From the NCBI RefSeq assembly GCF_000708755.2, contig NZ_JGVU02000006.1, forward strand, positions 1 through 64,000: a DNA stretch of 64,000 nt. Reading direction: 5' to 3'. A program made the position numbers and the translations under genes. Shown here piece after piece: positions 3,403-14,356 of the stretch. The notes beneath the pieces are model-generated. The model did not search any database, had not been told where the DNA came from, and saw only the letters and a list, made by a program, of their open reading frames with translations. This DNA comes from Metabacillus indicus LMG 22858. GTDB lineage: Bacteria; Bacillota; Bacilli; Bacillales; Bacillaceae. Within the stretch, counting starts at the first letter, position 1. Each line of letters opens with the position of its first letter.

Positions 3403-3440
3403 AAGCATTCGCAAAGTTCATGGAAAATAGACTCTTTTCC

Positions 3441-3532
3441 TGTATCCCTCCGCTGGCATTACCCAGATCAGGTTAAAGGGTCGATACAAGAATCAGTATC
3501 CTCTCAGCCGAGTTCACTCAGCTCCCCTGCTT
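3441..3532 (-). promoter_or_regulatory. TPP riboswitch (thi box), leftward
   Basis: On the minus strand the THI-box landmarks occur in order: GGGGAGCTGAG, CGGCTGAGAGG, then ACCCTTTAACCTGATCTGGG and TAATGCCAGCGGAGGGA. This is a nearly consensus thiamine pyrophosphate aptamer. Together with the terminator at 3374-3402 it should shut down the thiamine-binding-thiXYZ operon when TPP is plentiful. Confidence 0.95.
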
Positions 3533-3687
3533 CTATAAGATTCATGGAAACTATAGCAAGTTTTACAAGACTTGTAAAGAAAGGAAAAATACTTTCCGCT
3601 ATTTTCTGAAAAAAAATAGAATTTAGGCTTGTCGAATTTTGCAGTTTCCTGTATAGTAGTGTCTAAATCATATATCGCATTTGACCA

Positions 3688-3772
3688 CTTGGGGAGCCGC
3701 CGGCTGAGAGTGAACGTTATGTTCTGACCCGTTGAACCTGTTAAGTTAAAGCTTACGTAGGGATGTGGCGAT
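3688..3772 (+). promoter_or_regulatory. TPP riboswitch (thi box), rightward
   Basis: Plus-strand THI-box elements GGGGAGCCG, GGCTGAGAGTG, ACCCGTTGAACCTG and TACGTAGGGATGTGG occur in the correct order. The P4/P5 part (TTAAGTTAAAGCTTACGTAGGGA) is less canonical than in the leftward copy but is typical of thiT leaders. It precedes a terminator and thiT. Confidence 0.92.
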
Positions 3773-3795
3773 GGATTCAAGTGATAACCCAACCA

Positions 3796-4741: not shown

Positions 4742-4858
4742 AAAAGCGCAAGCGCCAAGGCCCGCTCCGATAGGCAGATAAGAATCCGGCGGAAAAGTCC
4801 GGTTTTGACTTTTTTGACGGATTTGTTCTGACAGAGGATCTAGGCGCTGGAGCTTGCC
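4742..4858 (+). repeat. REP-like imperfect palindrome
   Basis: A non-coding, highly foldable element of about 115 bp. Nested inverted repeats can be seen: outer AAGCGCC against GGCGCT plus GCTT, middle AATCCG / CGGATT, inner AAGTC / GACTT. The edge motifs AAGCGC...GCGCC and GGCGCTGGAGCTT resemble a family of short repeats scattered in Bacillaceae intergenic regions. Only one copy lies in this window, so the repeat nature is inferred. Confidence 0.5.
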
Positions 4859-4898
4859 GTTGATAACTTTGTTATGTTATCAACAGCCTTTTATTTTT
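4859..4898 (+). terminator. Hairpin with T-rich tail
   Basis: GTTGATAAC (4859-4867) pairs with GTTATCAAC (4876-4884), followed by a T-rich stretch (CCTTTTATTTTTT). A probable terminator for plus-strand transcription from the small membrane protein gene. Confidence 0.55.
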
Positions 4899-4922: not shown

Positions 4923-4951
4923 AACCCGGCATATGTCTGCCGGGTCTTTTT
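4923..4951. terminator. Terminator between opposing transcripts
   Basis: A perfect 9-bp GC-rich stem (AACCCGGCA / TGCCGGGTC with one mismatch at the edge) is followed by CTTTTT on the plus strand. On the minus strand it is followed by CTGCTTTTTG, so it may also end the tRNA-like RNA. Confidence 0.65.
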
Positions 4952-4953
4952 GA

Positions 4954-5145
4954 TGCCTCTGGCGGGATTCGAACCCGCACTCCTTTCGTAAGCATAGGCT
5001 AAGGGGAACACGCTTCCCTACGGATTTTCACCGGCAGGAATTTCACCTGCCTCAGCATAGTTGCTTTTCGGTGCTTCTGAAACCTTTGCCTTGCGACCCG
5101 GTTCTACTGTTTTCCGGCGCTCTTCCCTTCTAGAGCTACAGAGGC
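4954..5145 (-). ncRNA. tRNA-like RNA with ~115-nt expanded middle
   Basis: On the minus strand the 192-nt stretch begins GCCTCTG (5145-5139) and ends CAGAGGC plus A, a perfect 7-bp acceptor-like stem. Next to the 5' strand is TA and a 4-bp D-like arm (GCTC / GAGC with a GGG-containing loop). Next to the 3' strand is a perfect T arm, GCGGG TTCGAAT CCCGC. Instead of a 17-nt anticodon arm there are about 130 nt with their own helices: GGCAAAGG / CCTTAGCC (one mismatch), CACCG / CGGTG, GCAGG / CCTGC and TAGGGAA / TTCCC. CCA is not encoded (ATCA). No open frame of note covers it. It could be an intron-bearing tRNA, a tRNA mimic or a new structured RNA; I do not recognise the family. The missing anticodon arm argues against an ordinary tRNA. 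Confidence 0.6.
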
Positions 5146-5152
5146 TTATTAA

Positions 5153-5176
5153 GAGTCTCTGTTTTCACAGAAACTC
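5153..5176 (-). terminator. Hairpin after the epimerase gene
   Basis: GAGTTTCTGT pairs with ACAGAGACTC (10 bp, one G-U, GAAA tetraloop) on the minus strand just after the epimerase stop. The tail TTAATAAG is only partly T-rich, so it may be a weak terminator or an RNA-stabilising hairpin ahead of the tRNA-like RNA. Confidence 0.45.
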
Positions 5177-7831: not shown

Positions 7832-8734
7832 TTACACGGCTTGTTGTTCAGGAATTTCCGCTCCTGTTTTTTTCTCAGTCATAAAAAGAAGCACACCGGC
7901 AACAATGATTCCGCCACCAATCACCTGCGTAAGGAGAACCGTCTCAGCCAAAAAGAAATAGGCCAGGATAATCGAGCCCACCGGTTCAAACAGAATGGCG
8001 ACCGAGATGACATTTGTCGAAATCCACTTCAGCGACCAGTTAAACAGCGAATGCCCAAGCAGGGTCGGGACTAACGCAAGCAGAAGAAAATATATCCAGT
8101 CCTGTTGCGGATAGCCGCCGAGCGGATACTTCAGAGCCAGACAGTAGATTAGAAGTGTCACGGAGCTGACGGCATAGACGATGAACGTATAAAGCGTCAG
8201 AGAGTGCCTTTTCCTCACTCCCTGGCCAAAAAGAAGGTACGCCGTGACCATCGCACAGGCTGCCAGAGCAAGAAAGTCTCCGAACAGAGCAAGACCGCTG
8301 ATTCTGAAATCTCCCCAGCTGATAACAGCACTGCCGGCAATCGCCAGCAGGGCACTGATTACTCCCCTGATTGAAACTCTTTCTTTAAAAAAGAAATACG
8401 TTCCGATAAAAGCAAACAGCGGCTGAAGCGTCACGAGAACAACCGAACTTGCCACAGACGTGTAGTTAAGGGATTCAAACCAGAGGATAAAATGAAAGGC
8501 AAGCAGCACCCCGGCCAGAGCGGAATAGCTCCAGTCTTTCCGTGACATCGTCTTTAGCTGCGGCAGACATTTTGCCAGAAAAAGAGGCAGAACAAGCAGC
8601 GTGGAAAAAAAGAGCCTGTAAAAGGCAATAACCGGCGCAGGAGCAGATGTCAGTTTTACAAAGATAGCGGATGTTGAAACAGCCGCAACCCCCACAGCAA
8701 GTGCGATATATGGATACAAAGTGGTTTTATTCAT
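7832..8734 (-). CDS. EamA/DMT-family transporter
   Basis: A 300-aa inner-membrane protein with ten predicted helices arranged as two EamA repeats (about residues 10-140 and 155-285). FYRLFFSTLLVLPLF in the first repeat and FEPVGSIILAYFFLAETV in the second are typical. DMT proteins export metabolites, amino acids or drugs; the substrate is not evident. The start at 8734 is preceded by GAAGGAGAAAAAAC. Monocistronic. Confidence 0.85.
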   Translation of the reverse strand: MNKTTLYPYIALAVGVAAVSTSAIFVKLTSAPAPVIAFYRLFFSTLLVLPLFLAKCLPQLKTMSRKDWSYSALAGVLLAFHFILWFESLNYTSVASSVVLVTLQPLFAFIGTYFFFKERVSIRGVISALLAIAGSAVISWGDFRISGLALFGDFLALAACAMVTAYLLFGQGVRKRHSLTLYTFIVYAVSSVTLLIYCLALKYPLGGYPQQDWIYFLLLALVPTLLGHSLFNWSLKWISTNVISVAILFEPVGSIILAYFFLAETVLLTQVIGGGIIVAGVLLFMTEKKTGAEIPEQQAV

Positions 8735-8870: not shown

Positions 8871-10520
8871 ATGCAATCACTTAAAAACAAAACCATCGGC
8901 CAATTATTGAAAGACACTGTTTCTGCATACGGAAATAGAGATGCAGTCGTCTATTCAAAGGAAAACATCCGCTATACCTATGATGAGTTCTATCGCGAGA
9001 CAACTAAACTCGCAAAAGCGTTAATCGGACTCGGCGTAAAAAAAGGCGAAAACATTGCCATATGGGCTACGAATGTTCCTGAATGGCTGCTCCTTCAGTT
9101 TGCATCTGCCCGCATTGGGGCCGTGCTTGTCACTGTCAACACCAGCTATCAAAGCAGTGAACTCAAGTATTTGCTGCAGCAGTCAGACTCTGCCGCTCTC
9201 TTTCTGATTGACGGCTATAAAGGAACATCTTACGTTGATCTGGTCCGCTCCATCACGACTGAAACCTCTTCAGAAAACAGCTCACAGCCTGCACTCCCTT
9301 ACTTGAAGAATCTCATTTACATAGGACAGAATGAAGCACCGGAGGGAATGCTCAGCTGGAACGACCTTCTCCTCCGCGGCATGAAAGTGACCGATGAAGA
9401 ACTTGCAGAACGTGAGAGCCTGCTCACACCTGAAGGCGTTATAAATATGCAGTATACGTCAGGTACAACCGGTTTTCCGAAAGGTGTTATGCTGACGCAT
9501 CATAATATCGTCAACAACGGGTTTTTGGTGGCAAGTGCGATGAATTTGACTCATGAAGACCGCCTGTGTATTCCTGTCCCGTTTTTCCACTGCTTCGGCT
9601 GCGTTCTCGGCGTGCTTGCCTGCGTTTCGGTCGGGGCGGCAATGGTTCCGATTGTGGAATTCGACCCTGACCTTGTTCTTCAGACGGTTGAGAAAGAAAA
9701 ATGCACCGGGCTGCATGGCGTGCCAACGATGTTTATCGCGGTGCTGAACTCTCCAAATTTCAAAAAATACGATCTCTCCACGTTAAGAACAGGCATTATG
9801 GCTGGCTCCACCTGTCCGATTGAGGTGATGAAAAAAGTGATGAACGACATGGGTATGTCGGAAATCACAATCGCCTACGGACAAACAGAAGCCTCTCCTG
9901 TTATTACGCAGACGACAGTAACAGATTCCATCGAACGCAAAGTGGAAACGGTCGGCAAGGCACATCCGCATGTGGAAGTAAAAATTATCGATCCCGTTAC
10001 AGGAGAAGAAGTGCCAAGAGGCGTGCAGGGCGAGCTTTGCACAAGAGGGTATCTTGTCATGAAAGGGTATTACAAAATGCCGGAGGCTACTGAGGAAGCT
10101 ATTGATAAACAAGGCTGGCTTCATACCGGCGACCTGGCAACAATGGATGAGCACGGCTATATTGTCATCACCGGACGCCTCAAGGATATGATTATCCGCG
10201 GGGGCGAGAATGTCTATCCTCGTGAAATTGAAGAGTTCCTTTACCGTCACGAAGACATTATGGACGTTCAGGTGATTGGTGTTCCGGATGAAAAATACGG
10301 AGAAAGAGTGGCAGCCTGCATCGTTTTAAAAGAAGGCGCAGCACTTACTGCTGATGACGTAAAAGCCTTCTGCAGAGGACAGCTGTCCCATTATAAAATC
10401 CCTGAATACTACACCTTTGTCAAAGACTATCCAATGACCGCTTCAGGAAAAATCCAAAAATACAAACTCAGGGAGCAAGTGAAAAACGCATTGGCAAGGG
10501 AACTGTCTGAGAAAAGCTGA
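8871..10520 (+). CDS. Acyl-CoA synthetase (AMP-binding, FadD/YngI-like)
   Basis: A 549-aa ATP-dependent fatty acyl-CoA ligase: acid + ATP + CoA to acyl-CoA + AMP + PPi. The AMP-binding P-loop [11 protein letters not shown] lies near residue 193. [10 protein letters not shown] (A5-like), [16 protein letters not shown] (A7) and the C-terminal lysine in [13 protein letters not shown] (A10) are all present, so the enzyme should be active. It resembles the medium/long-chain YngI group more than acetyl-CoA synthetase. ATG at 8871 follows GGGAGG. The DinB gene begins 57 bp later and may share the transcript. Chain-length preference is not readable. Confidence 0.88.
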
Positions 10521-10576
10521 AAAGAGATTTCCTGCAGGCAAGTTTGATAGAATAACGGCAGAAGGGAGAGATCACC

Positions 10577-11065
10577 ATGCTCGACTATACATTGAACGTA
10601 AGAGAAGAACTGATCAGAGAAACAGAACAAATGACAGATGAACAGCTGAACATGAAACCCTCACAGGATGTCTGGAGTCCTGGACAGATTCTCGACCATC
10701 TGTATCTGATGGAAACCGTCATCACAGGCGGCCTCAAGCACGTATTGATGAACGGCGAAAAAAAAGAGGCCTCTGAAAAACCGCTCCAACTGGTCATTGA
10801 CCGCTCACGCAAAGTGCCGGCACCTGAAAACCTGAAGCCGGCAGAAGGCCCATTTTCAAAAGAAGAACTATTCTCAAAGCTTGACCGCTCGCGGCGTGAA
10901 CTCATCAACTTTGCAGAAACAGCTCCTGAACAGGAACTGGAAGAAAAGGCGATGAAGCATCCGCATCTCGGAGACCTTTCTCTCAAGCAATGGATCGAAT
11001 TCATCGGCTATCATGAGAAAAGACACCTGCTTCAGCTGCTCGAAGTGCGGAGTGCAGTTTCCTAA
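10577..11065 (+). CDS. DinB-family metal-binding protein
   Basis: A 162-aa four-helix-bundle protein of the DinB/YfiT superfamily. The expected metal triad is present: His41 in ILDHLYLM, and His146 and His150 in GYHEKRHLLQL. Superfamily members include bacillithiol and mycothiol S-transferases. Bacilli make bacillithiol, so a thiol-transfer role is plausible but unproven. GAAGGGAGAG precedes the ATG. A strong terminator follows at 11092. Confidence 0.85.
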   Translation: MLDYTLNVREELIRETEQMTDEQLNMKPSQDVWSPGQILDHLYLMETVITGGLKHVLMNGEKKEASEKPLQLVIDRSRKVPAPENLKPAEGPFSKEELFSKLDRSRRELINFAETAPEQELEEKAMKHPHLGDLSLKQWIEFIGYHEKRHLLQLLEVRSAVS

Positions 11066-14192: not shown

Positions 14193-14356
14193 ATTTTCCC
14201 CCTTTTACCTTCATGCTTACCCTTACTCAATGCTTTTGCTATTTCAGTCCATCAGTCCCGTCTGTGCTGGCCGGTTGCGCTACTTGCTCCCGATCGTTAA
14301 AGCGCCCAATTATAAACGATCAATCTCTGCATTCCACTTATTACTTTCTACCTATA

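Follow-up and report, generated by a model that had tools for sequence, protein, structure and literature searches.

The 64,000-nt stretch of the Metabacillus indicus LMG 22858 genome analyzed here (contig NZ_JGVU02000006.1, positions 1 to 64,000; hereafter, the window) contains, on the minus strand, a locus for a 192-nt RNA (4954..5145; position 1 of the RNA is nucleotide 5145 and the discriminator A is nucleotide 4954), the fold of which is supported by covariation. An earlier note on this DNA had described here the acceptor stem GCCTCTG/CAGAGGC, a D arm and the T arm GCGGG-TTCGAAT-CCCGC, and all three elements are indeed present, with the coordinates exact (5145..4954, minus strand), in the order GCCTCTG-TA-GCTC..GAGC-G ... 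GCGGG-TTCGAAT-CCCGC-CAGAGGC-A. The acceptor, D and T stems and the TTCRANY-type T loop are traits of the tRNA family (RF00005), and the D and T arms are separated by 140 nt. The sole tRNA called by ARAGORN in the window lies elsewhere, with no call on the 192-nt RNA, and comparison of the RNA with Rfam 15, a check proposed in the same note, yielded no family at the gathering score and only sub-threshold matches at E values up to 10, hence no clean match to a known family. Folded as a single sequence, the RNA shows only a moderate excess of stability over shuffled sequences (z -2.33; 5 of 200 shuffles fold equally well and 195 less well).

Upstream of the RNA lies a 298-aa ORF, for which the earlier note supplied the name SDR (name only), with its stop codon 41 nt before the RNA start. 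A hairpin situated between this stop codon and the RNA (5153..5176, minus strand), identified by eye, is kept with base changes in the congener G050 but is not part of the RNA family. Downstream, an intrinsic-terminator-like hairpin is followed by a T-rich tail (4923..4946, minus strand); the hairpin is also found in G050, but lacks the T-rich tail in that genome. An interspersed repeat of ~146 nt (4745-4890) adjoins the RNA and has 48 matches in the genome of the window, itself included.

Fold of the RNA and its covariation

Relatives of the RNA were aligned by sequence, and 54 distinct full-length sequences were retained after the removal of partial or decayed copies (L022-L028, L036, L070-L073) and identical rows. 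A structure of ten helices and 49 pairs was drawn with an RNAalifold prediction (45 pairs) and the alignment in view. The stems, the conservation of which in homologs the earlier note had proposed to examine, are conserved: 99.1% of the 2602 cells are paired, against 95.4% in shuffles, with changes on both sides of 13 pairs (6.3 in shuffles) and in 93 cells (23.1 in shuffles). The covariation score is 0.132, compared with 0.062 in shuffles, none of the 500 shuffles matched the observed value for any of the five measures, and sliding the structure by 1-3 columns left 34-50% paired, although these controls call for caution because the sequences share ancestry and were themselves the source of the structure. 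A second, less constrained test computed mutual information with APC correction for pairs of columns in an alignment of 89 sequences built from sequence alone (of 92 distinct; L023, L070 and L071 dropped). The five top-ranking pairs, 158-163, 96-112, 32-45, 61-144 and 6-186, all belong to the proposed structure, as do 4-188, 31-46, 5-187 and 95-113 among the top 45 listed, for a total of nine of the 45; the other 36, mostly with few standard pairs, are taken as noise or relatedness. Two further candidates were set aside, namely, the pair 38-66 (weighted counts AU 25.3, GC 2, GG 1), which depends on three divergent sequences and which we do not claim, and a pseudoknot GTTTCAG/CTGAGAC noticed by eye, which is unsupported, its strands being nearly invariant and column 104 varying without column 70.

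Both-side changes occur in the acceptor stem, the hairpin at the anticodon position, the long helix, the H3 hairpin and the GNRA-capped hairpin, and are absent, in the main group of sequences, from the D stem, the T stem (one-sided changes only) and the CACC/GGTG, AGC/GCT and TCC/GGA helices. In the acceptor stem (5' strand GCCTCTG, 5139..5145; 3' strand CAGAGGC, 4955..4961; both on the minus strand, as are all elements that follow), 99.7% of the cells are paired and three pairs changed on both sides. The relatives carry compensated variants, namely, GCCTCAG/CTGAGGC, GCCTCCG/CGGAGGC, GCCCCTG/CAGGGGC, GCCACTG/CAGTGGC and GCCCTCG/CGAGGGC, in addition to GCCTCTG/CAGAGGC, so chance pairing of this stem is excluded. 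The D arm (5119..5136), with a 4-bp stem and a loop containing GGG, is 98.6% paired, and is preceded by T8 and A9, for which the mean majority frequency across 89 sequences is 1.0. The T arm (4962..4978) is 99.3% paired.

The D arm is followed by the anticodon-position hairpin, CCGG-12-nt loop-CCGG (5098..5117), in which two of the four pairs covary (GC, UA, UG, AU). In the window copy, the loop is AAAACAGTAGAA, that is, 12 nt on 4 bp, which departs from the tRNA norm of 5 bp and 7 nt with U33, there being no U33-type loop. Both strands of the hairpin are occupied by letters in 53 of the 54 aligned sequences, the exception being L069; of the divergent relatives, L163 lacks a clear hairpin, and L162 has at this position the arm GGAGA-AAACGGA-TCTCC, with 5 bp and a 7-nt loop, again without U33. 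The expanded part of the RNA comprises 119 nt (positions 49-167) and is located after this hairpin. Thus, the earlier description of an anticodon arm replaced by about 130 nt stands with respect to the large insert, and not with respect to the replacement: the 119-nt domain follows the hairpin and abuts the T stem, so it is the variable region that is expanded. Class II tRNAs likewise carry their variable arm directly before the T stem.

The domain is entered through the joining strand GUCGCAA (5091..5097), the last A of which pairs in the next helix; this strand is present in 87 of the 94 loci (mean majority frequency 0.978 in 89 sequences) and is kept in L162 and absent from L163. In the long helix that comes next (5' strand AGGCAAAGG, 5083..5091; 3' strand CCTTAGCCT, 4996..5004), three of the eight pairs covary, one of them as GC/AU/CG, and one pair (alignment columns 66-156) is broken in 4 of the 54 sequences. 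The strands CACC (5070..5073) and GGTG (5029..5032) are nearly invariant in the 54 sequences; their pairing is supported because the strands are swapped, to GGTG/CACC, in both L162 (93.9 bits) and L163 (71.5 bits). The small hairpin AGC..GCT (5054..5065) is invariant in all 54 sequences and accordingly is beyond the reach of covariation. The H3 hairpin, GGCAGG-TGAAATT-CCTGCC (5033..5051), has a loop of the UGNAA type, and four of its six pairs covary; this hairpin is absent from 6 of the 54 sequences. The hairpin TCC-GTAG-GGA (5015..5024), a proposal of the alignment fold, lies within the most conserved stretch (mean majority frequency 0.991) and displays no covariation. Finally, the hairpin GCUUAC-GAAA-GGAGU (4979..4993), capped by a GNRA loop, abuts the T stem, and its closing pair, 158-163, is the one that tops the covariation scan.

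Among the helices proposed previously in the insert, GGCAAAGG/CCTTAGCC and GCAGG/CCTGC covary, and CACC/GGTG is backed by the two divergent relatives, but TAGGGAA/TTCCC was not kept. The GGGAA/TTCCC part of the latter appears in the minimum-energy fold of the single sequence, but its 3' strand is lost in relatives (GTGTTG, GTGTTA), and the alignment fold places TCC-GTAG-GGA there instead, a hairpin so nearly invariant that covariation cannot reach it. The two copies of GGTGAAANTCC reported in the insert are both found, the first within a hairpin that is missing in 6 of the 54 sequences. The earlier note likened this short stretch to part of the cobalamin riboswitch core; the echo faded on comparison, with no cobalamin match up to an E value of 10, and, unlike such riboswitches, the window RNA is free-standing, without a fixed downstream gene. 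The GGTGAAANTCC stretch may reflect a shared UGNAA loop motif.

The joining strands GUCGCAA, UUUCAGAAG and GAAA and the stretches UCCGUAGGGA and AGCGUGUUC show mean majority frequencies of 0.97-0.99 in 89 sequences, which equals the conservation of the T arm and the CACC/GGTG helix and exceeds that of the other stems; among the unpaired parts, lower values were obtained for the anticodon-position loop (0.886) and for AAAN (0.865).

Distribution, genomic neighborhood and mobility

A BLAST search at the family level detected a match in 26 of 80 genomes, with fragments and decayed copies counted, and yielded 21 full-length copies of 181-202 nt. At the order level, matches were found in 38 of 397 genomes and 16 of 135 genera (fragments counted), and the covariance model R1 detected the RNA in 32 of 299 genomes; the genome sets used for the order, class and phylum (397, 299, 398 and 398 genomes) overlap. 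In the class, the R1 search reported 195 of 398 genomes at an E value of 0.01, and among the matches listed, ten places scored at least 71 bits; the match in G044 (35 bits) represents a decayed copy, and the remaining matches listed, at no more than 29.4 bits, are mostly tRNA-sized. By eye, six weak loci from this search are four tRNAs, a 5S rRNA-tRNA region (L169) and a decayed copy (L164). The phylum search identified 6 of 398 genomes at an E value of 1e-5, with four full relatives and two tRNA-sized matches (72 and 84 nt). In the orders to which the divergent relatives belong, the RNA was found in 2 of 42 genomes (G592 and G774) and in 1 of 6 (G461). A 26-base pattern matched 70 stretches in named records, from the Bacillus pumilus group, Metabacillus, Priestia, Lysinibacillus, Kurthia, Peribacillus, Cytobacillus, Shouchella, Jeotgalibacillus, Domibacillus and others. 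The RNA is a widespread mobile class in Bacilli in which a tRNA shell holds a giant variable-region domain, and is real rather than a one-genome oddity.

Loss of the RNA is tolerated, as indicated by the decayed copies L023, L025 and L026 at the B. pumilus-group site, where decay is seen in several relatives. At this site (L009-L015, L020, L021, L023, L025, L026), the RNA, decayed in some copies, lies a few dozen nucleotides upstream of an ORF with a ribosome-binding-type sequence. Degenerate second copies (L070, L071) were found in genomes G259 and G426, which also hold a full copy, and in L076, a 3'-only fragment (8303-8376) precedes a full copy (10419-10614) by ~2 kb on the same contig.

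The nearest ORFs, compared for 87 loci (84 of them full-length), vary between genera. Recurring neighbors form clusters of at most six members, the largest coming from a single Peribacillus-type site, and the clusters that span genera are small. Downstream, the closest ORF runs on the opposite strand at 52 of the 87 loci and on the same strand at 29, and the remaining 6 have none. Hence a position downstream of the SDR gene, from which the earlier note had proposed to collect homologs, is not the general context: neighbors differ by genus, and all five searched congeners lacking the RNA keep the SDR gene. In these five genomes, the upstream gene (a partial match in G049) is closely followed by the next gene, with a terminator-like hairpin, identified by eye, in between; in the genome of the window and in G050, the interval after the upstream gene is occupied by the RNA and its hairpin.

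A perfect TATAAT starting 10-34 nt upstream of the RNA is present in 60 of the 94 loci distinct by their flanks (shuffles: mean 7.1, maximum 16), at least five of its six bases in 76 of 94 (40.9 in shuffles), and a terminator-like hairpin within 80 nt downstream in 19 of 94 (2.85 in shuffles), with the proviso that the 94 loci are related, so these are not independent events. The many unrelated sets of neighbors, together with the TATAAT box in 60 of 94 loci, show that the RNA is an autonomous gene. The window copy and its counterpart in G050 have no good -10 box (3 of 6 bases), which counts against their having a promoter of their own; the window copy, therefore, may depend on read-through from the SDR gene.

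The RNA is also carried by plasmids: 18 of 72,556 plasmid records match, 17 of these over at least 80% of the query, and they come from Listeria (8), Cytobacillus (5), Peribacillus (2), Bacillus (2) and Priestia (1). That no annotated feature underlies any of the 18 matches is uninformative because the plasmid table holds no RNA genes. Among 50,697 phage records there was no match, and in viral contigs two loci, which joined the sequence pool, were found with one pattern and none with another. Between a Listeria plasmid (L029) and two Kurthia loci (L122 and L141), the RNA, the 85-95 nt before it and the 44-45 nt after it are 93-94% identical, and no further similarity was detected within the 1500-nt flanks; presumably, the promoter region, the RNA and the terminator region moved as one unit.

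Integrases commonly use the 3' ends of tRNA genes as attachment sites, and tmRNA genes also serve in this capacity. In the Listeria plasmid pCFSAN008100, a phage-like block of ~17 kb (by annotated coordinates) with a tyrosine integrase starts at the 3' end of the RNA; the 10-mer CCGTCAGAGG, which includes the CAGAGG of the acceptor 3' strand, is found at both ends of the block, and the acceptor strand ends in A in place of C. L029 is the unoccupied counterpart of this integration site. A Listeria case of integration at a tRNA 3' end is described in PMC7272582. In a search for integrases among the loci, matches of 21-28% identity, besides the query loci, were obtained in L070, L155, L165 and L179, of which L070 contains a degenerate copy of the RNA and L155 a 3' fragment. 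In L220/L221 (NZ_CP011399.1), the phage-like block inside the Listeria plasmid, with its 10-bp repeat, lies between the RNA (~5.2 kb) and the integrase (56.2-57.4 kb).

The block integrated at the 3' end with its 10-bp repeat and the existence of 3'-only fragments could indicate that the gene persists merely through the use of its tRNA-like 3' end by integrases, the RNA itself being idle. However, selection is exerted across the entire fold, including parts distant from the 3' end, and covariation within the domain disfavors such a relic. Moreover, conservation at four shared sites is higher in the RNA than in either the upstream or the downstream flank (0.951 vs 0.749 and 0.613 at the Peribacillus-type site, 7 loci; 0.948 vs 0.794 and 0.809 at the B. 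pumilus-group site, 9 loci; 0.988 vs 0.823 and 0.679, 4 loci; 0.954 vs 0.833 and 0.835, 2 loci), and we consider a relic highly improbable.

In genome G461, an array (L187:8068-8535) consists of tRNA-Glu, tRNA-Ile(UAU), tRNA-Trp and then the divergent RNA L162 with an encoded CCA; a tRNA-Ile with the UAU anticodon is unusual in bacteria. Genes near the array match a Toprim/zinc-ribbon primase-like protein, RecD2, NusG, DUF5131 and IS605 OrfB. No Rfam or ARAGORN call was obtained on the copies L162, L163 and L161 within L187-L189. The conserved TTCGAAT T loop, the location of L162, with its CCA, in a tRNA array and the phage attachment at the 3' end jointly suggest that the RNA is handled in the manner of a tRNA, against which we count the finding that CCA is encoded in only 2 of the 94 loci.

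Carriage on plasmids and the position of the G461 copy at the end of a tRNA array, near genes for a RecD2-type helicase and primase-like and NusG-like proteins, would also be compatible with a decoy for tRNA-attacking toxins or nucleases, borne by plasmids and phage-like elements beside tRNA arrays. Such a role appears quite unlikely, given that the length of the anticodon-position loop varies and that no neighbor family recurs widely (neighbors were compared as clusters, without toxin or defense annotation).

Relationship to known RNAs and possible function

The RNA shares with class II tRNAs (RF00005) the acceptor stem, T8 and A9, the D arm, the T arm and a hairpin directly before the T stem, and its ends would be suited to RNase P and CCA addition. 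It differs from them in the 119-nt multi-helix variable region, in the 12-nt anticodon-position loop without U33, and in giving no tRNA call or Rfam match. In the Rfam 15 search of the window RNA, there was no match to a group I intron at the gathering score or at E values up to 10, a group II intron was rejected as an identity, the only match being group-II-D1D4-4 at 12.3 bits where 49 are needed, and the match to RNase P class A (6.8 bits vs 100) falls outside the RNA.

The earlier note also entertained an intron-bearing tRNA. A functional tRNA with a small self-splicing intron would account for the canonical ends and could seem compatible with the 5 bp/7 nt arm of L162 at the anticodon position. 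This proposal is not supported: no group I or group II family matches at threshold, the insert comes after the anticodon-position hairpin, and its removal (splice sites were sought by eye only) would leave a 12-nt loop without U33. We consider an intron highly improbable.

Combinations of tRNA-like ends with additional domains bring to mind tmRNA (RF00023), in which such ends are joined to a large extra domain, and YrlA (RF02553), a bacterial ncRNA with a tRNA-like module. Unlike tmRNA, the window RNA has a D stem and an anticodon-position hairpin, and the match amounts to the 17-nt T arm, with 13 bits vs the gathering score of 47; the match to YrlA reaches 17.5 bits vs 69. The longest closed ORF inside the RNA has a median of 15 aa per locus and a maximum of 40, with at least 20 aa in 19 of the 94 loci. 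The TROVE (Ro60-type) domain was found in one of the 11 genomes tested, G592, which carries the divergent L163, and was not found in the genome of the window or in the RNA-bearing genomes G050, G461, G774 and G462. A molecule of the tmRNA or Y RNA type, toward which the tRNA-like end, the extra helices, the two weak matches and the single TROVE-positive genome would point, is rejected as an identity in view of scores far below gathering and the absence of TROVE from the genome of the window; the short ORFs may also tell against it, and it is the least probable of the alternatives. As described in part of PMC3399842, tRNA-Other of Bacillus cereus resembles the RNA in being a tRNA-like element in a larger, island-linked Bacillus RNA, and is set apart by its description as a pseudo-tRNA within longer transcripts, the longest 5' end being 565 nt upstream.

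No description of the RNA was found in the literature covered, which did not extend to subscription journals and nearly all preprints; "undescribed" here means unmatched in Rfam 15 and not found in the literature searched. In the parts of two ncRNA surveys that were accessible (PMC11109978, PMC8632094), the term 'tRNA-like' is absent and nothing resembles the RNA. Plasmids have been searched for known ncRNAs with Infernal and Rfam, and the names in the table, in the part of PMC9484302 at hand, include rli28, RatA, NiCo and fluoride elements.

The best-conserved parts of the RNA include several joining strands (0.97-0.99), which argues for a binding role. The joints are near-invariant in many families, which suggests contact of the domain with a conserved molecule, or a core for ligand binding or catalysis, in preference to pairing with mRNAs that vary. 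Near-invariant junction strands are typical of riboswitch or ribozyme cores, and the domain is built around several helices and small hairpins; these features underlie the main rival explanation, a ligand-binding or catalytic RNA in which activity resides in the variable-region domain and the tRNA ends are there for processing and stability only. Nevertheless, no Rfam family matched at the gathering score and no riboswitch at E values up to 10, the only ribozyme-type matches were group-II-D1D4-4 and RNase P class A, and there is no fixed downstream gene to regulate; we view this alternative as serious but unlikely. With regard to pairing with the 16S and 23S rRNAs of the same organism, the longest Watson-Crick complementarities are 9 and 8 nt (11 and 13 nt with G-U pairs), as in shuffles. 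A likeness to the 690 region of 16S rRNA was attributed to chance (local score of 16 vs a shuffled mean of 13.7 and maximum of 19).

The RNA has a conserved fold, no fixed neighbor, a promoter-like box in most copies and carriage on plasmids, and its 3' end is used by a phage-like element in one plasmid. Both the 'new structured RNA class' and the 'tRNA mimic' that the earlier note had offered fit this evidence. The near-invariant joints, the lack of extended rRNA complementarity and the absence of Ro60 from the genome of the window lead us to favor a tRNA mimic that targets a conserved tRNA-handling machine: the RNA would constitute a free-standing, mobile class in Bacilli that acts in trans by docking on such a machine of the host, a tentative explanation that we rate slightly below an even chance. 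The tRNA-shaped shell (acceptor stem, D arm, anticodon-position hairpin and T arm) carries a strongly conserved domain of ~120 nt where a tRNA has its variable loop. The transcript would begin with a short leader, RNase P would cleave it to form the 5' end, CCA would be added to the 3' end as in tRNAs, and the RNA would work in trans. In what is the weakest step of this scheme, the shell would dock on the conserved machine and the variable-region domain would block or retune it. Mobile elements would carry the RNA as an accessory gene, as they do with tRNA genes. We count against this explanation the fact that the RNA is dispensable, with a match (fragments counted) in no more than 26 of the 80 family genomes. 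A related reading, possible if somewhat doubtful, is a new, non-decoding 'giant-variable-arm' class of tRNA spread through Bacilli by plasmids and phage-like elements, a pseudo-tRNA that would join the tRNA traffic of the host and the 120-nt arm of which might block or reprogram one step of it (charging, EF-Tu delivery, ribosome entry or tRNA decay).

Few tRNA-like RNAs carry extra domains, and ribosome rescue was revealed by tmRNA, the best known among them. The present RNA is common (roughly a tenth of the genomes of the order, in the overlapping sets above), strongly constrained, small and genetically tractable; it offers a defined bait for the purification of partners, and genomes, plasmids and existing transcriptomes could be re-read for it.

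The window harbors other structured RNAs, recognized with Rfam 15. Two TPP riboswitches (3427-3538, minus strand; 3680-3780, plus strand) lie on opposite strands, facing away from each other, and a c-di-GMP-II riboswitch (14260-14341, minus strand) precedes a 567-aa ORF that resembles a chemotaxis receptor, the protein name coming from reading only.
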